A stretch of 64,000 bases of DNA, from assembly GCF_003952425.1 (NCBI RefSeq), contig NZ_CP034449.1:6498001-6562000 (forward strand), read 5' to 3'. Source of the stretch: Mesorhizobium sp. M2A.F.Ca.ET.046.03.2.1 (GTDB lineage Bacteria; Pseudomonadota; Alphaproteobacteria; Rhizobiales; Rhizobiaceae). Every line of letters starts with the position of its first letter. The stretch's first letter is position 1. The notes under the pieces are model-generated. The model was not told where the DNA came from. It made no database searches and was given only the letters and a program-made list of their open reading frames with translations. Shown here piece by piece: positions 18,259 through 33,783 of this stretch. The position numbers were made by a program, and so were the translations under genes.

Positions 18259-20142
18259 ATGAAATTCCTCGGGAACATAAAGGCCGTGCTGCCGATCGCG
18301 ATCGCGGCGGCGCTTGCCTTCGGGCACCAGCCGGCAAGCGCGCAGGGGCTGTTCGACATGCTGTTCGGCGGCGGCATCCGGCACAACCCGCAAGGCGAAT
18401 TTCCGCCGCCACCGAAGCCTCGCAAGATAGGTCCGGCAACGCCGGGGGCGGGTGGCGGCGGCGCCCGAATCAGCAGCCCGACCTACAACACCTACAGGGC
18501 CGATAAGCTCGTTCGCGTCGACTTCAAGTCGTTGTTGCCGGCACCGCCACCAGCAACGGCGCAGGATGCCGCCTTCGTGCCGTCAGTGACCAGCACCGCG
18601 TTCCGCGATGCCGTTGCCGGCCTGGGCGACTACGAGCTGTTCGCCGAGCCCGACATCGCCAAGGCGCTGATCGCTTATTACTCGGCCAATCCGGATTTCA
18701 TTTGGGTGAGCGACAACGCCCCCAACAGCAGGGCGCAGGATGCGGTGCGGGTGCTGGGCGAGGCGGCGAGCTACGGTTTGACGCCGGCCGACTACTCCGT
18801 CGACATTCCGGCGGCCGCGACTTCCGCCACGCCGGAAGAGCGGACCAGGGAACTGGTTCGGTTCGAGATGGCGCTGTCGGCGCGCGTGCTGCGCTACGCC
18901 CGTGATGCCCAGAGCGGCCGTGTCGATCCCAACCGGATGACCGGCTACTATGATTTCCCGGCCAAGCCGTTCGATCTGGAAGGGGCGCTGAAGACACTGG
19001 CGCATACCCAGGAGGTCCGCACCTATCTGGAGTCGCGGCATCCGCAGAATCCGGAATACCAGGCGCTGCGCGTCGAACTGGAAGCGCTCGAGGCCAGCGA
19101 GGAAAACGAGATCGTCGTCGATCCCAAGCTGTTGCTCAAGCCGGGTGAGAGCAGCCCGGAACTGCCCAAGTTGCTGACGCTGATTGCCCGCAATCTTGAT
19201 GACGAGATGGGCGGCAACTATGGCGAGGTGCTCGCCCGCCTTGGCAAGAGCGTGGTTTACGACCCCGAGTTGGTGCCGGTGATCAAGGCGGTGCAGCAGC
19301 GGGAAGGCATGAAGGGCGACGGCGTCATCGGGCCGCGGACGGTGGCTTTGCTGGCCGGCGCTTCGAAGGCCGACAGGATCGAAAAGGTCAAGGTGGCGCT
19401 CGAGGAGCTGCGCTGGATGCCGTCCGATCTCGGCAGTCCGCGCGTCTTCATCAACCAGCCCTCCTTCACCGCCAGCTATATCGACAGTGGTGAGGAGAAG
19501 CTGAAGACCCGCGTCGTCATCGGCCGGGTTACCAACCAGACTGCCTTCTTCTACGATCACATCAAGCAGGTCGACTTCCATCCCTATTGGGGCGTGCCGC
19601 AGTCGATCATCGTCAACGAGATGCTGCCGAGGCTGCGCAGCGATCCCGGCTATCTCGATCGCGCCGGCTATGAGGTGACGGATTCGCGCGGCAGGCAGAT
19701 CCCGTCGTCAGAGGTGGACTGGGGCGCCTATGGCTCTAAGATCCCATTCAGCGTGCGCCAGCAGCCGAGCGAGGCCAATGCGCTGGGCGAATTGAAGATA
19801 CTCTTCCCCAACAAGCACGCCATCTACATGCATGACACGCCGCAGAAGTCCTTCTTCGCGCGCGACATGCGGGCGCTCAGCCATGGCTGCGTCCGGCTGC
19901 AGGATCCGCGCGGCATGGCCGCCGCAGTGCTTGGAACCTCTGTCGACGACATTGCCGAGAAGCTGAAGCACGGCCATTCGACCGAGAATGTCACGCGCGT
20001 CATTCCGGTCTATGTCGCCTATTTCACCGCCTGGCCTGATATGTCCGGCAAGGTCGAGTATTTCGACGACGTCTATGACCGTGATTCCAAGCTGATGCAG
20101 GCGCTGGACGCGACCGAAGCGGTGCGCACGCCGTCAAGCTGA
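18259..20142 (+). CDS. L,D-transpeptidase family protein with peptidoglycan-binding domain
   Basis: A 627-residue exported cell-wall enzyme. It has a signal peptide (residues 1-29, ending ASAQG), a Pro/Gly-rich linker, and a helical domain of about residues 110-320 resembling the WbsC/YcbB-type N-terminal region. A peptidoglycan-binding motif VIKAVQQREGMKGDGVIGPRTVALL follows. The YkuD catalytic domain spans about residues 390-590, with HDTPQKSFFARDMRALSHGCVRLQDP and catalytic Cys544. Members of this group cross-link peptidoglycan 3-3 or attach proteins; the layout resembles Escherichia coli LdtD (YcbB). The start has GGAGCGAG upstream. It is monocistronic and followed by a palindromic repeat. 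Confidence 0.92.
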   Translation: MKFLGNIKAVLPIAIAAALAFGHQPASAQGLFDMLFGGGIRHNPQGEFPPPPKPRKIGPATPGAGGGGARISSPTYNTYRADKLVRVDFKSLLPAPPPATAQDAAFVPSVTSTAFRDAVAGLGDYELFAEPDIAKALIAYYSANPDFIWVSDNAPNSRAQDAVRVLGEAASYGLTPADYSVDIPAAATSATPEERTRELVRFEMALSARVLRYARDAQSGRVDPNRMTGYYDFPAKPFDLEGALKTLAHTQEVRTYLESRHPQNPEYQALRVELEALEASEENEIVVDPKLLLKPGESSPELPKLLTLIARNLDDEMGGNYGEVLARLGKSVVYDPELVPVIKAVQQREGMKGDGVIGPRTVALLAGASKADRIEKVKVALEELRWMPSDLGSPRVFINQPSFTASYIDSGEEKLKTRVVIGRVTNQTAFFYDHIKQVDFHPYWGVPQSIIVNEMLPRLRSDPGYLDRAGYEVTDSRGRQIPSSEVDWGAYGSKIPFSVRQQPSEANALGELKILFPNKHAIYMHDTPQKSFFARDMRALSHGCVRLQDPRGMAAAVLGTSVDDIAEKLKHGHSTENVTRVIPVYVAYFTAWPDMSGKVEYFDDVYDRDSKLMQALDATEAVRTPSS

Positions 20143-21578: not shown

Positions 21579-23360
21579 ATGGCTGAACGGAATTACACCC
21601 GTCAGCTTGCGACAATCATATCGATCGACGCCGTCGGATTCTCGAGGCTGATGGGCATCGACGACGAGCTCGCCGTTGCCGCGTTCGAGGAGAGGCGCGA
21701 CATCATCGCCGGCAGTTGCGGCGCATTTGGCGGGCGCACATTCGGCGATGCCGGCGACAGCATCATGGCCGAATTCGGCAATCCGATCGAAGCCTTGCGG
21801 GCAGCCTTCGACTTCCAGGCGCGGATCGCAGCGCTGAATGCGGCGGTTGCCGAGGACATGCGCATGCCGTTTCGCGCCGGTATCAATACCGGCGATGTGA
21901 TTGTCCGTGAGGGCCGTCTCTACGGCGACGACGTGAACATCGCCGCCCGGCTTCAGGAACTCGCGCCTCACGACGGCGTCGCCATCTCGGCGACGACCTG
22001 GCACCATGTGAAGGACAAGACAGCAGCGGTCTTTACCGATCTCGGCGAGTTCAGCCTGAAGAACATCGCTCTGCCGGTGCGGGTCCTGATCGCGGGCCGC
22101 GGCGGCAACGGGCCTGCCACGCCGGCCTCCTTCGCTTCTATCCCGGCCGCGCCCGGCCATTACAAACCCGTCCCCAAGGGGCCACCGGCAATCGCGGTGC
22201 TGCCGTTCCAGGGCAATGGAAGCGAACCGGACGTCGGCTATATGGCCGACGGCATTGCCGAGGACATCATCTACGGTCTTTCCAACACGCGCTGGCTTTC
22301 GGTCATCGCAAAGGGATCCAGCTTTCAGTTTCGCGACGACAGCCTGGGCACAAGGCTCATCGGCAATGCGCTTGGCGCGCGCTACATCGTCAGCGGCACG
22401 CTGGCGCGCCACGACAGGCATATCCGTCTCAACGCATCGCTTACAGACACGTCGAACGGGCGCCTGGTCTGGTCGCAACGCTTCGACCGCGATCTCGTCG
22501 ACATCTTTAGGCTGCGCGACCAGGTCGGCAGCGAGATCGTTTCCATCCTCGACAAGGAGGTCGATCGCGCCGAGCAGGCGCGTACGTTCCAGGTGCCGTG
22601 GGAGAGCCTTGAGACTTGGCAATTGGTCAGGCGCGGCCGCTGGCACATGAACAGGCGCACACGCCGCGACACCGACATCGCGCTCGACTTCTTCGACAGA
22701 GCCTACCGGGACGATCCGAACTCGAGCGCCGTGCTCAACGAACTGGCCTGGTGGTATTTCTGGCGGGCCTGGCTGCGTTTCGGCGACAGCGACGACCTGG
22801 AAAAGGTAGAGGAGCTTGCGCGCAAGGCGCTGCTGATGGACAGCCTCGACGCACGCCCGCATGCCTATCTCGGCGCGGCCGACATCATGCGCGGCCTGCC
22901 GGCATTGGCGGCCGAGCACCTTGCCGAGGCGATCCACATCAATCCGAGCTTCGCCTTCGCCCGCTCGGCCATGGGCAGCGCGCAACTTTTGCTTGGCGAC
23001 GCGGCCGGCGCGATCCCGTTCTTTCTCGATACCGAGCGGTTGAGCCCGTTCGACCTCTATCGCTTCCACAATCTGGGTGAACTGGCCGCCGCCTATTGCT
23101 TCGTCGAGGACTGGCCGGCCGCGATCGCCACAGCCGAGCGCTCGCTCAACCTGTCGCCAAGTTACTTCTACGCCAGGTTCCTGAAGATAGGCGCCCTGAT
23201 CAGAAGCGGCAGGCATGACGAGGCAGAGCGCGAGCTTGCGATTTTCATGACCCGGCATCCTGACTTTTCCGAGCAGAGGATACGCTGGATACCGTTCGTT
23301 GACCCGGCCAAGAACAATTTCCTGATCGCCAATTTCGATCGGGCCAAGTCAGCCGCATGA
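21579..23360 (+). CDS. Class III adenylate/guanylate cyclase with TolB-like and TPR region
   Basis: A 593-residue soluble protein. Residues 1-175 form a class III cyclase domain: SIDAVGFSRLMG supplies the first metal Asp (Asp17), AGDSIMAEF the second, and DDVNIAARLQEL the transition-state Asn and Arg. The middle (about 195-330) has AIAVLPFQGNGSEPDVGYMADGIAEDIIYGLS and ARYIVSGTLARHDRHIRLNASL, a TolB-like module seen in many rhizobial cyclases. The rest is TPR-like helical repeats. It should make cAMP, or cGMP, from the nucleoside triphosphate in the cytoplasm; the residues that normally select ATP are not clearly conserved. The P450-DyP gene follows on the same strand after 117 bases, which contain a Crp-type site. 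Confidence 0.88.
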   Translation: MAERNYTRQLATIISIDAVGFSRLMGIDDELAVAAFEERRDIIAGSCGAFGGRTFGDAGDSIMAEFGNPIEALRAAFDFQARIAALNAAVAEDMRMPFRAGINTGDVIVREGRLYGDDVNIAARLQELAPHDGVAISATTWHHVKDKTAAVFTDLGEFSLKNIALPVRVLIAGRGGNGPATPASFASIPAAPGHYKPVPKGPPAIAVLPFQGNGSEPDVGYMADGIAEDIIYGLSNTRWLSVIAKGSSFQFRDDSLGTRLIGNALGARYIVSGTLARHDRHIRLNASLTDTSNGRLVWSQRFDRDLVDIFRLRDQVGSEIVSILDKEVDRAEQARTFQVPWESLETWQLVRRGRWHMNRRTRRDTDIALDFFDRAYRDDPNSSAVLNELAWWYFWRAWLRFGDSDDLEKVEELARKALLMDSLDARPHAYLGAADIMRGLPALAAEHLAEAIHINPSFAFARSAMGSAQLLLGDAAGAIPFFLDTERLSPFDLYRFHNLGELAAAYCFVEDWPAAIATAERSLNLSPSYFYARFLKIGALIRSGRHDEAERELAIFMTRHPDFSEQRIRWIPFVDPAKNNFLIANFDRAKSAA

Positions 23361-23383: not shown

Positions 23384-23399
23384 TGTGAACGAATTCACA
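23384..23399. promoter_or_regulatory. Perfect Crp-type binding site TGTGA-N6-TCACA
   Basis: TGTGAACGAATTCACA is a perfect 5-bp dyad identical to the Escherichia coli CRP core consensus. It lies in the 117-base gap between the cyclase stop and the P450-DyP start, its centre 86 bases before the ATG. A Crp-family gene with conserved recognition residues lies at the other end of the fusion gene. Confidence 0.75.
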
Positions 23400-23477: not shown

Positions 23478-26400
23478 ATGATCACATTGAAGTACTTCTC
23501 CGCGGTCCGGGCCGCCCAGAAGAGCCAGCGTCCCGTCGCCGAAATGCCGCCGTTCGACATCTATCGACTGCGTTCCAAGGGCGGCATTGCCGCGCGCATC
23601 GCCGGCTTTCTTCTCGGCGATCCGCGCTGGCTGCTGGCGCTGCTGCGCCGCTTCTGGCCGAATCCCGGCTTCGGCAATTTCCTGCTCGTCACCAAGGGCG
23701 CGGATGTGCGCGACATATTGGAGCGCGGCGACGAGTTCGAGACGCCTTACGGGCCGGAAATGGCCGAGTTGGCCCGGGGCTCGAATTTCATTCTCGGCAT
23801 GCAGGACGGCGCCGCATACCGGCAGATGAAGTCGGCCGTGCTGAGCGCGTTCCCGCCGGCGGAGGTCGAAGCAACCGTCAGGCCGATCGCCGAGCGCCAT
23901 TCGCGCGAGATCATGACCCGCGCCAGCCCCGGCTTCGATGCCATTGCAGGCTTGATGAAGATCGTTCCGGTGCGCATCTGCCGCGATTATTTCGGCCTTC
24001 AGATCGATGATGAGACCGAATTCGCCGACTGGTCGATCGCGCTCAGCGCGCTGTTCTTTTCCGATCCGACGGCAAATCCCACCACGCGCCAGCTTGCCGT
24101 GGTCGGGGGAGATCGCCTGATCAAAATTATCGACCGCTCGATCGCCGCGGTCCGGGAAAAGGCGAACAAGGATGACAGGCCGCTGGCTCGCTTGGTCGCG
24201 CTGATGGACCAGGGACGCCTGTCGCTGCCCGACATTCATTCCATCATGCTCGGCATGGTCGCCGGCTTCGTGCCGACCAATGTGCTTGCCGGCAGCAATT
24301 GCCTGGATGTGATCCTGTCGCGAACCGATGCACGGCAGGCCGTGGATGAGGCCCTCGGCGCCGGCGATACCGGCAAGCTCGACCGGGCGATCATGGAAGC
24401 CATGCGCTTCAAGCCGATCTGGATCGGACCCTGGCGCTACACCAGGCGTGACGCGGTCATCGGCAAGGGTACCCGCCGGGAGCGCGTGGTCAAAGCCGGA
24501 ACGGTCGTCATGCCGGCGACGCTCTCGGCGATGTTCGATCCGGAGATCGTGCAGCGGCCGAACGCGTTCGACACCTCGCGCCCGCATCGCGACTACATGG
24601 TTTTCGGTTACGGCATCCATCTGTGCATCGGCGCGGAAATCGCCCGCATTCAGATCGGGGAATGCATCCGCGCCCTGTTCAGCAAGCCGAAGCTGACCCG
24701 CGCGCGGGGCAGGGCTGGCAAGATGGTCAGTGTCGGCGCCTACCCGGCGAGCCTCAAGGTCGATTTCGAGCGCTCGCCGCTTTGCCGCACCGCCGAGCAG
24801 TCGATGGTGACCGTGGTCTGCCCGATCACCCGACCGATGCCGCTCGATGCGGTGCGCGACAACGTCGCGGATCTCGGCAATCCGGCGATCGGCGAAATCA
24901 GCGCCGCGCTCGACAAGGTTGGCACCATTCATTTCACCAGCCTGGCCGTCGCTCCCACCGGCAAGGACGAAAAATCGGGGGCCGAGACCGGCGCGCTGGT
25001 GTTGGAAATCTCGGGCGACGGCAGCACCGACGATGTCATTGCCGCCATAGCGCAAGCGATCGGTCACCGGCTGAGGCCGATTTTCAGGGATGTCTGCGGC
25101 CTCCCGGACGGCGGTTCGCTGGAAGACTTCCTGAAGAGGAAGCACATCGAGATATCGCCGTCTTTCGGCAGCGCCGCCGGGCTGGTTTTCTCCGGCACGC
25201 CGGGACATTCCGTGCGGCGGATCCTGGCCGAGGCCAAGCTCGCCGACAGCGTGCGTGAGATCGTCGAAAAGCCGCGCGCGGGCACCGGCAATGCGATGGA
25301 TGTGCTTGCCGAGGCGCGTCGCCATGTCCAGTGCCTCGGGCAATTCGGCTGGGCATTCGAGCCCGCCGAAAGCCTGCTGGAAAGACCGCCCGGCCACTGG
25401 TCGCGCGCGCTGACGACGACGCTGCTGACGCCTGCTATGTTCGCCACCGTCGCGATCGTCATTCTGGCCTTCTGGCGCATGACTTATGTGCTCGTGTTCG
25501 GAAACCCGCATGGGGTCACCTTCACCAACATCGCGATTGCGGGAACCTCGCTTCTGCTTTCAGTCCTCGGTCTGCTGGCCATTCTCGCCCTGTTCGTCGG
25601 GTTTTGCTTCCTGGCGTTGCGGCGGCTCGAGGACAAGGACCAGCCGGCGAGCACGCCGGTCGAGATCGGAGCGCTCGAAAAGATCCTCGCCCATGAGGAC
25701 CACACCGCGCAGAACAATCTGACGGCGATCTCGACGATGAAGGTGGGCATCTTGCGGCGGCTGGCGCTGCGGCTCTCCTTCTACCTGATCTCGATATCGG
25801 CGCAGAAGGTGTTCAGGCCAGGCTTCCTCGCCACCATCAACACCATTCATTTCGCCCGCTGGGTGCTGTTGCCCGGCACCAACAGGCTGATGTTCTTCTC
25901 CAATTACGGAGGCAGTTGGGAAAGCTATCTCGAGGACTTCATCGCCAAGGCCTCGGCCGGCTTGACCGGTGTGTGGAGCAACACCGACGGCTATCCGCGC
26001 ACGCGCTGGCTGTTCCTGGACGGCGCGCGCGACGGCGATCGCTTCAAGCGCTGGGCGCGGCGCCAGCAGGTGCCGACGCTGTTCTGGTACACCGCCTATC
26101 CGCGCCTCAACACCACGCGTATCCGCATCAACTCCAGGATCAGGCGCGGCATCGCCTCGGCTACCGGCAACGAGGCGCGCGACTGGCTGAGCCTTTTCGG
26201 TTCCCTGCCGCGTCCGCAAGCGCTGCCGGCTGATGCGAGGAGCCTGGCGGGGCCTCCGTCCTCGCCCCTCGAAGCGCTGGAATCCGGCGAAATCCAGTCG
26301 ATCTTCTTCGGGCCGTTCGGCGCGCTCGGCGACGCGCATATGCTTGCGATCCAGGTGCCGGATGGCCTGCCGACGGCGAAGCGCAAGGCGTGGCTCGACT

Positions 26401-27704
26401 TCGTCATCGGCAAAACCAGCTTCGGCGACGGGGTACCCGTGGGCCGCGCTATGACCGTGGCGTTCGGGCCCAACGGACTGCGCCGGCTGGGGCTCGAAGG
26501 CGGCGTCGACGACGAACCGCTGGACACGTTCCCGGTCGCCTTCCGGGAAGGCATGGGCACGCCCGAGCGCAGCCGCATCCTCAACGACACCGGCCCTGAC
26601 GCGCCCGACAAATGGCAGTGGGGGTCTTCCGCCAAGCCCGTCGATGTCGTCATCGTCTGCTATGCCGAGACGCCGGCCTTGCTGAAGGCCGAGATCACGG
26701 CCATGAAGCGACAGACGGCAGGCGCCGGGATGTCGGTGACCGCCGAACTGCCGCTGAAGGTGAAGCGCGACGGCAAGCGAGCGGTCGAGCATTTCGGCTT
26801 CGTCGACGGCATCTCGCAACCGATCGTTCGGGGTACGGCGCGCGCCGCTAAGGGAGCCGCGCCCATGCATCTGCTCGCACCGGGCGAGTTCCTGTTCGGT
26901 TATCGCGACGAGCATGGCTTCTATCCGTCGTCGCCGTCGGTCGAGGCGGCGCTGGACCGCGCCGGCATCCTGTCGCAGGTGCGGCGCAACCGCCAGATAC
27001 CCGGGCAACCGCCTCCGCCGCGCGATTTCGGCCGCAACGGCACGTTCCTCGTCATGCGCCAGTTCGAGCAGCATGTCGAATTGTTCGACGATTATTGCAG
27101 GCGGGCGGCGACGCAGGCCGCAAATGAGACCGGCGATCCCACCGTCGATCAACGCTGGGTGGCCGCGAAGATGCTCGGCCGCTGGCAGGACGGCAGCTCG
27201 CTCGTGCGCAATCCGAACGGGCGGCCGGGCCGCGGCGTCGACAATGATTTCGCGCTCGGCGCCGAGGATCCGCAGGGGCACGCCTGTCCACTCGGCTCCC
27301 ACATACGCCGTTCCAACCCGCGCGATTCGCTCGGCGAGGACCGCGAGACGCAGATCAGGATCGGCAAGCGCCATCGCATCCTGCGCGTCGGCCGCACCTA
27401 CGAGAAAAAGGACAAGGGCGGAAAGACGGAGAAGGGACTGCTCTTCATGTGTCTCAACGCCGATATCGAGCGCCAATACGAGTTCATCCAGCAGACCTGG
27501 GTCTCGTCGAGCTCGTTCCAGGGTCTGGTCGGGGAGACGGATCCGACGATCGGGGCAAGGGGCGGCGGCGGCCGGTTCTCGATCCCGTCCTGGGAAAAGG
27601 TCACCGTGTTCAAGGATGTGCCGAAGTTCGTCACCACGAAAGGCGGCGGCTATTTCTTCATGCCGAGCCGCTCGGCGCTGCGCTACATGATCTCGCGGTT
27701 GTGA
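23478..27704 (+). CDS. Cytochrome P450 - transmembrane - DyP-type peroxidase fusion protein
   Basis: A 1408-residue three-part protein. Residues 1-430 are a cytochrome P450: the ExxR motif is EAMR (Glu307, Arg310) and the haem loop FGYGIHLCIGAEIA has ligand Cys383. In the I-helix, AGFVPTN replaces the usual AGxDT. Residues 430-640 form an alpha/beta module (TIHFTSLAVAPTG) of unknown function. Two membrane spans follow (about 645-715), then a second similar module (NTIHFARWVLLPG, about 790-900). Residues 940-1408 are a DyP-type peroxidase with FVDG (Asp1110) and proximal haem His1275 in CPLGSHIRRSNPRD. No reductase domain is present, so a peroxide-driven reaction is plausible. A Crp-type site precedes the gene. 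Substrate and cellular role are unknown. Confidence 0.9.
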   Translation: MITLKYFSAVRAAQKSQRPVAEMPPFDIYRLRSKGGIAARIAGFLLGDPRWLLALLRRFWPNPGFGNFLLVTKGADVRDILERGDEFETPYGPEMAELARGSNFILGMQDGAAYRQMKSAVLSAFPPAEVEATVRPIAERHSREIMTRASPGFDAIAGLMKIVPVRICRDYFGLQIDDETEFADWSIALSALFFSDPTANPTTRQLAVVGGDRLIKIIDRSIAAVREKANKDDRPLARLVALMDQGRLSLPDIHSIMLGMVAGFVPTNVLAGSNCLDVILSRTDARQAVDEALGAGDTGKLDRAIMEAMRFKPIWIGPWRYTRRDAVIGKGTRRERVVKAGTVVMPATLSAMFDPEIVQRPNAFDTSRPHRDYMVFGYGIHLCIGAEIARIQIGECIRALFSKPKLTRARGRAGKMVSVGAYPASLKVDFERSPLCRTAEQSMVTVVCPITRPMPLDAVRDNVADLGNPAIGEISAALDKVGTIHFTSLAVAPTGKDEKSGAETGALVLEISGDGSTDDVIAAIAQAIGHRLRPIFRDVCGLPDGGSLEDFLKRKHIEISPSFGSAAGLVFSGTPGHSVRRILAEAKLADSVREIVEKPRAGTGNAMDVLAEARRHVQCLGQFGWAFEPAESLLERPPGHWSRALTTTLLTPAMFATVAIVILAFWRMTYVLVFGNPHGVTFTNIAIAGTSLLLSVLGLLAILALFVGFCFLALRRLEDKDQPASTPVEIGALEKILAHEDHTAQNNLTAISTMKVGILRRLALRLSFYLISISAQKVFRPGFLATINTIHFARWVLLPGTNRLMFFSNYGGSWESYLEDFIAKASAGLTGVWSNTDGYPRTRWLFLDGARDGDRFKRWARRQQVPTLFWYTAYPRLNTTRIRINSRIRRGIASATGNEARDWLSLFGSLPRPQALPADARSLAGPPSSPLEALESGEIQSIFFGPFGALGDAHMLAIQVPDGLPTAKRKAWLDFVIGKTSFGDGVPVGRAMTVAFGPNGLRRLGLEGGVDDEPLDTFPVAFREGMGTPERSRILNDTGPDAPDKWQWGSSAKPVDVVIVCYAETPALLKAEITAMKRQTAGAGMSVTAELPLKVKRDGKRAVEHFGFVDGISQPIVRGTARAAKGAAPMHLLAPGEFLFGYRDEHGFYPSSPSVEAALDRAGILSQVRRNRQIPGQPPPPRDFGRNGTFLVMRQFEQHVELFDDYCRRAATQAANETGDPTVDQRWVAAKMLGRWQDGSSLVRNPNGRPGRGVDNDFALGAEDPQGHACPLGSHIRRSNPRDSLGEDRETQIRIGKRHRILRVGRTYEKKDKGGKTEKGLLFMCLNADIERQYEFIQQTWVSSSSFQGLVGETDPTIGARGGGGRFSIPSWEKVTVFKDVPKFVTTKGGGYFFMPSRSALRYMISRL

Positions 27705-27753: not shown

Positions 27754-28437
27754 TCAGTCGTCGTCCTGCGATTCGGCGATATGGTTCAGCGCGGCGGCGT
27801 TGATGATGCGCAGGCCGCCGCGCTTGATGGCGATCATCTGCCGGTTGCGCCAGTCGTTGAGCGTCTTGTTGACGGATTCGCGCGTCGCGCCGAGGAATTC
27901 GCCGAGCTCGGATTGCGAAATCGGAATCCAACCGGCGGAGTCGGCCATGACCCCGCTCAGGAACACCAGCCGCTTCGCCAGCCGGGCCTCGATGCCGAAA
28001 AAGGCTTGGTCGCCCAACTCGCCGCTGACCCAGCGCAGCCGCGTGCACAGCAATTCGATCATCGCTCGCGCGAGAGACGGGTTTTTCTCAATGCGGTCAA
28101 AGAGTTGTGTCCGGCTCAGCGAAACCAGCTCGCATGCCGTGAGACAGCTGGCGGTGGCCGTGCGCGGGCGTCCGTCCAGTGCCCCGATCTCGCCGACAAG
28201 GCTGCGCGACAGCTCGATATTGGCCACCAGCTTCTGCCCGCCCGGCGAATAGATCGAGATCTCGACCGTGCCGCTTATCACACCATAGATGCGATCGGAG
28301 GCATCCTCTTGGACGAACAAATGCTGGCCGGCGGCGTAGCGCTCCAGCTTGCAGCCGCCGAACAGCAGGTCGAAGTGGCGCGGATCAATGCGCGCCAGGC
28401 GCGGCAGGTTGCTGTCGTCCGCGCCGTTTGTAGCCAT
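27754..28437 (-). CDS. Crp/Fnr-family transcriptional regulator, cyclic-nucleotide type
   Basis: A 227-residue regulator. The cyclic-nucleotide-binding beta-roll has FVQEDASDRIYGVISGTVEISI and the phosphate-binding cassette LVGEIGALDGRPRTATA, with the Glu and Arg that bind cAMP ribose and phosphate in CRP. There is no N-terminal Cys cluster, so it is not FNR-like. The HTH reads SQSELGEFLGATRESVNKTL; its Arg-Glu pair matches Arg180-Glu181 of Escherichia coli CRP, with Lys at the Arg185 position, consistent with TGTGA half-sites. It converges on the P450-DyP gene, 49 bases apart. The ATG at 28437 (MATNGADD) is preferred; a start at 28494 is possible. Confidence 0.92.
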   Translation of the reverse strand: MATNGADDSNLPRLARIDPRHFDLLFGGCKLERYAAGQHLFVQEDASDRIYGVISGTVEISIYSPGGQKLVANIELSRSLVGEIGALDGRPRTATASCLTACELVSLSRTQLFDRIEKNPSLARAMIELLCTRLRWVSGELGDQAFFGIEARLAKRLVFLSGVMADSAGWIPISQSELGEFLGATRESVNKTLNDWRNRQMIAIKRGGLRIINAAALNHIAESQDDD

Positions 28438-28556
28438 GATACGATTCCGCCTCTGGTTAGACGGAAATTGTAGGATAAGTGCGTGCTCGATCAAAGCGTC
28501 GTCTCCTTCTATGGTGACTCTCCGTTCGGCGGGTGGCTGACAAATGTTCCAATGTC

Positions 28557-28822: not shown

Positions 28823-28838
28823 TGTGAAGGTGGTCACA
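28823..28838. promoter_or_regulatory. Second perfect Crp-type binding site TGTGA-N6-TCACA
   Basis: TGTGAAGGTGGTCACA has perfect TGTGA/TCACA arms, and the flanks GTA and TAC extend the dyad imperfectly. Its end is 100 bases before the small membrane protein start at 28939 and about 385 bases upstream of the crp-type gene start on the other strand. The position suits activation of the membrane protein gene. Confidence 0.7.
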
Positions 28839-32310: not shown

Positions 32311-32338
32311 AAGCCCGGCTTTGCCCGGGCTTTTCTTT
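32311..32338 (+). terminator. Rho-independent terminator after the rpiA-DUF2059 pair
   Basis: AAGCCCGG, loop CTTTG and CCCGGGCTT form a GC-rich stem followed by TTCTTTTG. It lies 36 bases after the DUF2059 stop and separates that transcript from gor. Confidence 0.85.
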
Positions 32339-32394
32339 TGCCGCTTGGCAGCCTACCTGTGACCCGTCTTTCTCATCCCCAGGAGCCCACCACG

Positions 32395-33783
32395 ATGGCC
32401 GGTTATGACTATGATCTGTTCGTCATCGGCGGCGGGTCCGGTGGGGTCAGGGCGGCCCGGGTGGCGGCGGCCCTCGGCAAGCGCGTCGCCATCGCCGAGG
32501 AATACCGCTTCGGCGGCACCTGCGTCATCCGCGGCTGCGTGCCGAAGAAGCTCTATGTCTATGCCTCGCAATTTCCAGAGCATTTCACTGATGCCGCCGG
32601 CTATGGCTGGACGGTGCCCGAGGCGAGCTTCGACTGGAAGACGCTGGTCGCCAACAAGGACAAGGAGATCGCGCGGCTCGAAGCGATCTACAAGAGGAAT
32701 GTCGAGGGCTCAGGCGGCGAGACCTTCCACTCGCGCGCCGTGCTGGTCGACCCGCATTCCGTCTACCTGGTTGCCGAAGACCGCACCGTCAGCGCCGACC
32801 AGATCCTGATCGCCACCGGCGGCAGGCCGGCGCCGCATCCGGCGCTTTCGGGCCATGAGTACTGCATCTTCTCCAACGAGGCCTTCGATCTCAAGGAACT
32901 GCCAAAGGCGATCATGATCGAGGGCGGCGGATATATCGCCGTCGAGTTCGCCAACATTTTCCACGGCTTGGGCGTTGACACCACGCTGGTCTATCGCGGC
33001 CAGGAAATCCTCAGCCGCTTCGACATGGATCTGCGCCGCTCGCTGCATGAGACCATGGAGAAGAAGGGCATCAAGATTCTTTGCCCCGCGGTTTCGGAAT
33101 GGGTGCGCAAGACGCCTGAAGGCAGGCTAGATGTGCTGCTGTCAAGCGGTCAGACCCTCACGGTCGACCAAGTCATGCTGGCGATCGGGCGCATTCCCAA
33201 CACCGAGAATATGGGCCTGGAAGGCGTCGGCGTCGAACTCGGCAAGACGGGCGCGATCATGGTAGACCAATATTCGCGCACCAACATCGACAACATCTGG
33301 GCAATCGGCGACGTCACCCATCGCGTGCAACTGACGCCGGTCGCTATCCACGAGGCGATGTGCTTCATCGAGACCGCCTTCAAGGGCAATCCGACCGCGT
33401 CGGATCACGACACCATCCCGACCGCTGTATTCTCCCAGCCGGAGATTGGAACCGTCGGCCTGTCGGAGGACGACGCGGTCAAGCGCTTCCCCGATGTCGA
33501 GATCTATCGCGCGTCCTTCCGTCCGATGCGGCACACGCTGTCCGGCCGCGACGAGAAGATGCTGATGAAGCTGGTGGTCGACGGCGCGTCCAGGAAGGTG
33601 CTCGGCGCTCATATCCTGGGTCCCGATGCCGGCGAGATGGCGCAGCTGCTCGGCATCCCGCTGAAGGCGGGACTGACCAAGGACGATTTCGACCGCACCA
33701 TGGCCGTGCATCCGACCGCGGCCGAGGAACTGGTCACGATGTACAAGCCGACCTACCGCGTGAAGAACGGCGAACGCGTTTGA
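32395..33783 (+). CDS. gor: Glutathione-disulfide reductase
   Basis: A 462-residue flavoprotein disulfide reductase. The FAD motif is DLFVIGGGSGGVRAARVAA and the redox disulfide is GGTCVIRGCVPKK (Cys43, Cys48). The NADPH domain follows, ATGGRPAPHP closes the FAD site, and the C-terminal dimer domain ends HPTAAEELVTMYKP with the catalytic His-Glu. GGTCVIRGCVPKK is the glutathione reductase form rather than dihydrolipoamide dehydrogenase. It keeps glutathione reduced in the cytoplasm. ATG at 32395 has AGGAG 9 bases upstream. GST and DsbA-like genes elsewhere in the window may draw on the same pool. Confidence 0.95.
   Translation: MAGYDYDLFVIGGGSGGVRAARVAAALGKRVAIAEEYRFGGTCVIRGCVPKKLYVYASQFPEHFTDAAGYGWTVPEASFDWKTLVANKDKEIARLEAIYKRNVEGSGGETFHSRAVLVDPHSVYLVAEDRTVSADQILIATGGRPAPHPALSGHEYCIFSNEAFDLKELPKAIMIEGGGYIAVEFANIFHGLGVDTTLVYRGQEILSRFDMDLRRSLHETMEKKGIKILCPAVSEWVRKTPEGRLDVLLSSGQTLTVDQVMLAIGRIPNTENMGLEGVGVELGKTGAIMVDQYSRTNIDNIWAIGDVTHRVQLTPVAIHEAMCFIETAFKGNPTASDHDTIPTAVFSQPEIGTVGLSEDDAVKRFPDVEIYRASFRPMRHTLSGRDEKMLMKLVVDGASRKVLGAHILGPDAGEMAQLLGIPLKAGLTKDDFDRTMAVHPTAAEELVTMYKPTYRVKNGERV

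Follow-up and report, generated by a model that had tools for sequence, protein, structure and literature searches.

Single chains that join a cytochrome P450 (CYP, or P450) to a second haem enzyme are known. The excerpted text of PMC13049297 presents the fungal dioxygenase-CYP fusions, among them the linoleate diol, epoxy alcohol and allene oxide synthases and PpoA/CYP6001, as two haem enzymes in one chain with a P450 described as self-sufficient, and that of PMC5919972 presents CYP5619, reported from oomycetes, as an N-terminal P450 followed by a C-terminal haem peroxidase/dioxygenase, likening it to the CYP6001-6005 type and leaving DyP unmentioned in the main text. Here we analyse a 64,000-nt (64 kb) stretch of Mesorhizobium sp. 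M2A.F.Ca.ET.046.03.2.1 (the window; positions 6498001-6562000 of a genome assembled as a single 7.37 Mb contig), in which one gene is predicted to encode a P450 and a DyP-type peroxidase in the same chain. Compared with the fungal fusions, the partner here is a C-terminal DyP, with a membrane-inserted barrel between the two haem domains, and Pfam finds in the protein no animal-type peroxidase, the cyclooxygenase-like partner of the dioxygenase-CYP enzymes. A search of the open-licence PubMed Central literature, with subscription papers and preprints outside its scope, returned no description of a P450-DyP fusion. The building blocks and P450-peroxidase fusions are known; the DyP partner, the membrane-inserted barrel and the private cyclic AMP (cAMP) circuit described below would be new.

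The gene (23478-27704, + strand) starts with ATG and continues for 1408 aa to its stop codon with no internal stop, and its product appears to be a P450-DyP fusion with both haem sites intact. Pfam PF00067 (P450) covers residues 301-397 with 40.1 bits (cut-off 22.8), 8rtv, CYP113A1 and many others are matched by the P450 part, and the structure model shows a complete P450 fold. On the DyP side, the best match of the fusion protein to the sequences of the Protein Data Bank (PDB) is 8re3, a DyP-like peroxidase (phmmer, E 4.4e-39); Dyp_perox_C is found at residues 1269-1345, barely above its cut-off (20.4 bits against 20), NCBIfam Dyp_perox_fam (TIGR01413) scores slightly below its own (93.6 against 100.5) and DyP_N reaches 13.6 bits against 27.5, the N-terminal half of the domain being too divergent. 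We aligned 114 proteins of 1380-1520 aa out of 121, the window's own included, leaving out the seven shorter ones. The P450 signature, made up of the thiolate loop FxxGxxxCxG and ExxR, is present in 114/114 through C383, E307 and R310, as are the DyP superfamily residues D1110 of GxxDG, the proximal H1275 and R1303, the candidate distal Arg by analogy with other DyPs, together with R1300. The GxxDG motif, the proximal His, a candidate distal Arg and the C-terminal half are thus shared with the DyP peroxidases 8re3, DyP2 (4g2c) and Alr1585 (5c2i), from which this domain differs in being fused, membrane-tethered and divergent in its N-terminal half. A previous sequence-only reading of this DNA had proposed one uninterrupted 1408-codon frame with two haem enzymes: the frame and every motif position it gave are confirmed (E307/R310 in EAMR, C383 in FGYGIHLCIG, AGFVPTN at 262, D1110 in FVDG and H1275 in GSHIRR). 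By sequence the haem sites of both enzymes are intact; the P450 is also modelled as a complete fold, the DyP being assessed by sequence only.

That reading had also seen two hydrophobic helices near residues 645-715, and they are borne out by hydrophobic 19-residue windows beginning at 644-658 and 679-700 and by modelled helices at 652-674 and 682-720. It had no counterpart for what surrounds them. The middle of the protein, about 500 residues in which a Pfam sequence scan matched no family, is folded in a confident AlphaFold2 model into two ferredoxin-like halves with the membrane hairpin between them, which pack like a tandem barrel of the ABM type (a dimeric alpha+beta barrel of two ferredoxin-like halves) and form a third module. 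The top structural matches of this predicted barrel are the polyketide-related ABM proteins WhiE-ORFI and Abx(+)O, ABM/SchA-like tandem barrels whose two ferredoxin-like halves are matched together. Here, in contrast, a transmembrane hairpin parts the halves, and the region has no Pfam match.

The fusion is stable across many species. Among 7998 candidates scored, 1073 proteins are related at E <= 1e-3, and within the best 120 listed the closest relatives carry the name Mesorhizobium. Near-full-length matches in one open frame were found in 21 of the 36 same-genus genomes searched (in five of the 21 the alignment comes as two segments within a single frame), and matches to any part at E <= 1e-30 in 13/385 class-level and 24/398 phylum-level genomes. 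We scanned species genomes by pattern and obtained 529 relatives; the locus counts given here refer to the best 80 of these. They come from Mesorhizobium, Bradyrhizobium, Nitratireductor, Aquamicrobium, Novosphingobium (including Novosphingobium aromaticivorans), Sphingopyxis, Qipengyuania, Phenylobacterium, Rhodopseudomonas and others, together with one metagenome-assembled genome of Ramlibacter, and databases name the gene either 'cytochrome P450' or 'Dyp-type peroxidase family'. All five segments (P450, XA, the transmembrane part, XB and DyP) share one frame in 79/80 loci, the other being L128, with a stop between XA and the transmembrane part; the 80 loci were picked by similarity to fused queries and so speak for a stable fusion without implying that the majority of relatives carry it. 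The possibility that the frame is an assembly or annotation artefact of separate genes, which the sequence-only reading had named as its own way of failing, could draw on the separate-gene versions described next and on the stop codons between parts at L034 and L128, but a single frame in 79 of 80 loci from many species, and a source genome in one contig, leave it with practically no probability, and we consider it excluded.

Relatives also encode P450, barrel and DyP as adjacent separate genes, in agreement with the earlier statement that P450 and DyP are normally separate. Segment profiles run on 48 fetched loci found the parts as separate neighbours, with all three genes together in, among others, L027, L076-L080, L082, L085-L088 and L091. 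At L034 the P450 and XA-TM-XB-DyP (TM, transmembrane) lie in the same frame with one stop codon at the fusion point, and L113:713-3757 is a DyP-P450 fusion of reverse domain order with both haem motifs, adjoined by a separate barrel gene. Barrel and DyP occur with no P450 in the fetched stretch at many loci (e.g. L200, L203, L205, L206), including a Rhizobium plasmid, where the protein is called hypothetical, and an Acidobacteriota plasmid; the P450 is therefore not essential to the core. In a FastTree phylogeny of P450 domains (111 rows, 107 distinct) the fused ones all fall in one clade (support 1.0), with the standalone L032 nested in it and L034 as the nearest branch outside. In the DyP tree these separate-gene loci again come out in pairs (L027/L085, L086/L087, L079/L080 and L078/L082), though the fused DyPs do not form a clean clade, with L034 and L107 nested among them at low support. 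Because of the separate-gene loci, the P450-free loci and the two trees, it looks as if barrel plus DyP were the old core, which a P450 joined and with which it then fused, at least twice. The Rhizobium leguminosarum plasmid protein (L203:7863-10859) is a 998-aa barrel-hairpin-barrel-DyP chain with no P450, encoded near an ISNCY transposase. A recurring, putatively DUF4331-like gene family lies near single-barrel DyP genes (L030:10059-11240, L033:6703-7863, L114:14765-16348), and two more recurring families near barrel-DyP genes are Pfam-negative in the members scanned.

How might this P450 be driven? The acid-alcohol pair of a classical O2-activating P450 is missing, with no acid at 265 or 266 in 95/95 fused rows (91 distinct, four loci being counted twice under two ids, which leaves the conclusions unchanged), as anticipated when AGFVPTN was noted to be unlike AGxDT. 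CYP152 peroxygenases have Arg-Pro at the acid-alcohol position, and no Arg occurs in columns 262-268 of the 114 sequences, so the protein is not of that type by this mark. The sequence-only reading had also found no reductase domain or ferredoxin gene, and here too none was detected. Neither Pfam (E <= 0.1) nor NCBIfam (E <= 0.01) places a reductase family in the protein, as a CYP102/CYP116-type enzyme would have, and scans of the 64 kb window gave a single 66-aa frame for ferredoxin cysteine patterns, judged by eye to be noise, and a single match, also a 66-aa frame, for the FNR pattern. The redox-partner cysteine patterns, applied to 128 loci (80 + 48; frames of 60-400 aa; those patterns only, flavodoxins not covered), yielded one credible ferredoxin, L078:15740-16102, the rest looking by eye like frame noise.

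The fusion gene is embedded in what looks like a coherent local cAMP-CRP circuit, made up of the upstream cyclase gene, the convergent CRP-type gene and two palindromes (Table 1). The cyclase domain of the upstream gene scores 26.6 bits with PF00211 (cut-off 21.9) and retains D17, D60, N120 and R124. A homologue of this gene precedes the fusion in 76/80 loci; of the other four, L128, L129 and L184 begin at or near a contig edge and at L133 none was detected. To speak of a cyclase upstream in 76/80 would be too simple, what all 76 share being the TolB-TPR part: a cyclase domain is present in 52, with D17, D60, N120 and R124 in 50 of these, and among the remaining 24 a SARP-like pattern of our own making is matched by 20 and, as judged by eye, by L170, while a contig end truncates L116 and L121 and L124 is masked. 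Pfam support for SARP is slight (BTAD in L120, 23.0 against a cut-off of 22.1; Trans_reg_C in L181 at E 0.078; no match in seven other SARP-like upstream genes scanned), and RefSeq calls SARO_RS19860 a SARP regulator. L120:3127-5853 combines BTAD with a degenerate cyclase domain, and L192:3074-5824 is similar by sequence. The TolB-TPR regulator thus looks as though it swaps its output domain, cyclase or SARP-like, among lineages.

TGTGA-N6-TCACA is the CRP consensus. Perfect sites number eight in the whole 7.37 Mb genome, two of them at the fusion locus, compared with two for the reversed control. A CRP/FNR-type gene lies downstream of the fusion in 51/80 loci, and in the 200 nt before the fusion these carry a perfect site in 38 cases and a one-mismatch site in 8, against one and none in the 29 loci that lack the gene; sorted by the upstream protein, a site is found in 46/50 loci with intact cyclase residues and in 1/30 others, and where a SARP-like domain takes the place of the cyclase it is nearly always missing. 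As background, 4000 stretches of 200 nt were drawn at random from these loci; 49 had a perfect site and 24 a one-mismatch site, some being true sites. All these counts come from related genomes and are hence given with no p-value. The half-sites are constant and the spacer varies across loci, as expected of an operator, and 24 of the 51 CRP loci also have a perfect site in the 450 nt that precede the CRP gene. As in known cAMP-CRP regulation, then, a class III cyclase domain with its catalytic residues, a cNMP-binding (cNMP, cyclic nucleotide) helix-turn-helix regulator and operator-like TGTGA-N6-TCACA sites are all present by sequence; what differs is that here a single compact locus holds all of them, with one target gene in their midst. 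We also considered, and rejected, a loose CRP motif preceding the TolB-TPR regulator gene: the window has none, few loci have one, and the conserved site is behind that gene. In L127, L135 and L144 the regulator gene itself is preceded by CRP-like palindromes with at most one mismatch; in L127 and L135 that regulator has no cyclase domain. Elsewhere in the source genome, a perfect site (G000:C1:1995397-1995412) lies beside a second CRP-family match (1995573-1996136). Ordinary neighbours in the window include an L,D-transpeptidase and a glutathione-disulfide reductase (18259-20142; 32338-33783).

Table 1. Features of the P450-DyP fusion locus, in window positions (HTH, helix-turn-helix).
Feature	Coordinates	Strand	Basis
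P450-XA-TM-XB-DyP fusion gene, 1408 aa	23478..27704	+	relatives search, alignment, locus comparison
P450 domain, residues about 38-433	23589..24776	+	
I-helix AGFVPTN (262-268)	24261..24281	+	G263, F264, P266, T267 invariant in 114/114 aligned
Cys383, predicted haem thiolate ligand	24624..24626	+	114/114
XA (residues 441-640), containing the first half of the predicted ABM-like barrel	24798..25397	+	AlphaFold2 model
Predicted transmembrane hairpin, residues 652-720	25431..25637	+	hydrophobic windows and model
XB (residues 745-905), containing the second half of the predicted ABM-like barrel	25710..26192	+	model
DyP-family peroxidase domain, residues 935-1408	26280..27701	+	Pfam, NCBIfam, PDB sequence match
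Asp1110 of GxxDG motif	26805..26807	+	114/114; wider set: 93 D + 2 E in 95 rows
His1275, predicted proximal haem ligand	27300..27302	+	114/114; also 95/95 fused and 30/30 other rows
Class III adenylate/guanylate cyclase domain - FlgO/TolB-like - TPR protein, next gene upstream	21579..23360	+	PF00211
Perfect CRP-type palindrome TGTGAACGAATTCACA, 78 nt ahead of the ATG of the fusion, between cyclase and fusion	23384..23399	.	
CRP/FNR-type regulator (cNMP-binding domain and HTH), convergent	27754..28494	-	PF00027 61.9 bits, PF13545 52.7 bits
Second perfect palindrome TGTGAAGGTGGTCACA, upstream side of the CRP gene	28823..28838	.	

Clues to a substrate come from gene neighbourhoods. At L079:3-6325, open reading frames that overlap or nearly touch follow the order X1, X2, DyP, patatin-like phospholipase, P450 and FadL, and L080:4075-10390 has the same order, its patatin being identified by reading only; this operon gives thin support to long-chain fatty acids as the substrate. 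A metabolic role for the L079 patatin is not a given, since it also resembles the CBASS lipases of NF041079 (CBASS_lipase; 159.4 bits, below the cut-off of 200). RoxA-like dihaem proteins adjoin the P450s of L093 and L111, and by BLAST clustering only a RoxA-like gene lies beside X-DyP at L108; P. aeruginosa 10S-DOX is related to RoxA, according to the excerpted text of PMC4496055. GMC oxidoreductases, a possible source of H2O2, are encoded near two X-DyP loci with no detected P450 (L083:5589-7577, L090:11584-13326). Taken together, the lipid reading, with long-chain fatty acids as substrate, has moderate odds only.

As a whole, we tentatively favour, at somewhat less than an even chance, a membrane-tethered two-haem oxidative enzyme with a partner-free P450, a fatty-acid-type substrate and local cAMP-CRP control. 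The fusion would be tethered to the inner membrane by a hairpin of two helices whose short loop would leave P450 plus XA and XB plus DyP both in the cytoplasm, and XA and XB would form one ABM-type alpha+beta barrel tying both haem domains to the membrane. The DyP domain would use H2O2 or another hydroperoxide, and the P450 would work with no ferredoxin or reductase, as a peroxygenase or a hydroperoxide isomerase, on a hydrophobic molecule derived from the membrane, which might be an unsaturated fatty acid or its hydroperoxide. The TolB-TPR protein may sense a signal and make cAMP, upon which the CRP-type regulator would bind the TGTGA-N6-TCACA site before the fusion gene and turn expression on. 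It is possible, if rather unlikely, that the DyP makes or activates a fatty-acid hydroperoxide, the barrel holds it or hands it on and the partner-free P450 rearranges it, under a private cAMP-CRP switch that is SARP-swapped elsewhere; the fusion would then be a bacterial analogue of the dioxygenase-P450 enzymes that form oxylipins in fungi, assembled with a peroxidase of another superfamily. Several observations weigh against the reading that we favour. The register of the I-helix is ambiguous, P266 falling on the conserved Thr by phmmer and on the acid by the family alignment, so that the Thr is lost or retained according to register, and a Pro at 266 is missing in 4/16 separate-gene or split P450s; electrons for the P450 could still come from a housekeeping ferredoxin encoded elsewhere; the lipid operon has been seen only in G660 and G672, which belong to a single genus (g352); the P450s at L093 and L111 lie outside the fusion group and have a normal E-T motif, and we down-weighted their RoxA-like neighbours as oxylipin evidence; barrel and DyP do without a nearby P450 at many loci; and five of the 51 CRP loci, which are related and not independent, lack the site.

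The same evidence bears on other explanations. An ordinary O2-dependent monooxygenase fed by a housekeeping ferredoxin, with the DyP only clearing H2O2 from uncoupling, would fit the normal P450 fold and ligands, the retained T267, in one register a candidate for the classical Thr, and the fact that unlinked ferredoxins are usual in bacterial genomes; we nevertheless hold it to be unlikely, with no acid at either candidate position, one credible ferredoxin in all the loci scanned and a DyP that is also found with the barrel and no nearby P450. That the fusion is a haem-based sensor or signal maker, reading or producing a peroxide or an oxidised lipid that acts back on the TolB-TPR cyclase (or on the SARP-like protein in its place), with signalling as its purpose, seems quite improbable to us: the regulatory gene directly upstream, with its swapped output domains, and the histidine kinases that adjoin some separate-gene modules (L076, L082, L030) would suit it, but the operator lies where it would regulate the fusion, an arrangement that needs no feedback, and the haem-site residues of both domains are fully constrained, although a sensor would keep its ligands too. 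We give similarly little credence to an aromatic or polyketide-like tailoring, or a lignin-type oxidation, by barrel, P450 and DyP. The polyketide-related ABM proteins among the barrel's best matches and the presence of the fusion in N. aromaticivorans speak for it; against it, the neighbours scanned with Pfam, a chosen part of them, include no polyketide synthase or aromatic-ring enzyme, and a hairpin-anchored protein with no obvious export signal would be unlikely to reach extracellular lignin.

DyP is best known as a peroxidase that oxidises dyes and lignin. If the reading that we favour is true, DyP would join the haem enzymes known as natural fusion partners of a P450, and a P450 would be seen tethered through a membrane-inserted barrel instead of joined to a reductase. 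The fusion may also offer a two-haem, possibly peroxide-driven biocatalyst. Symbiotic soil bacteria have many class III cyclases and few known targets of them, and the parts that neighbour the fusion would provide, in such bacteria, a testable minimal second-messenger circuit.

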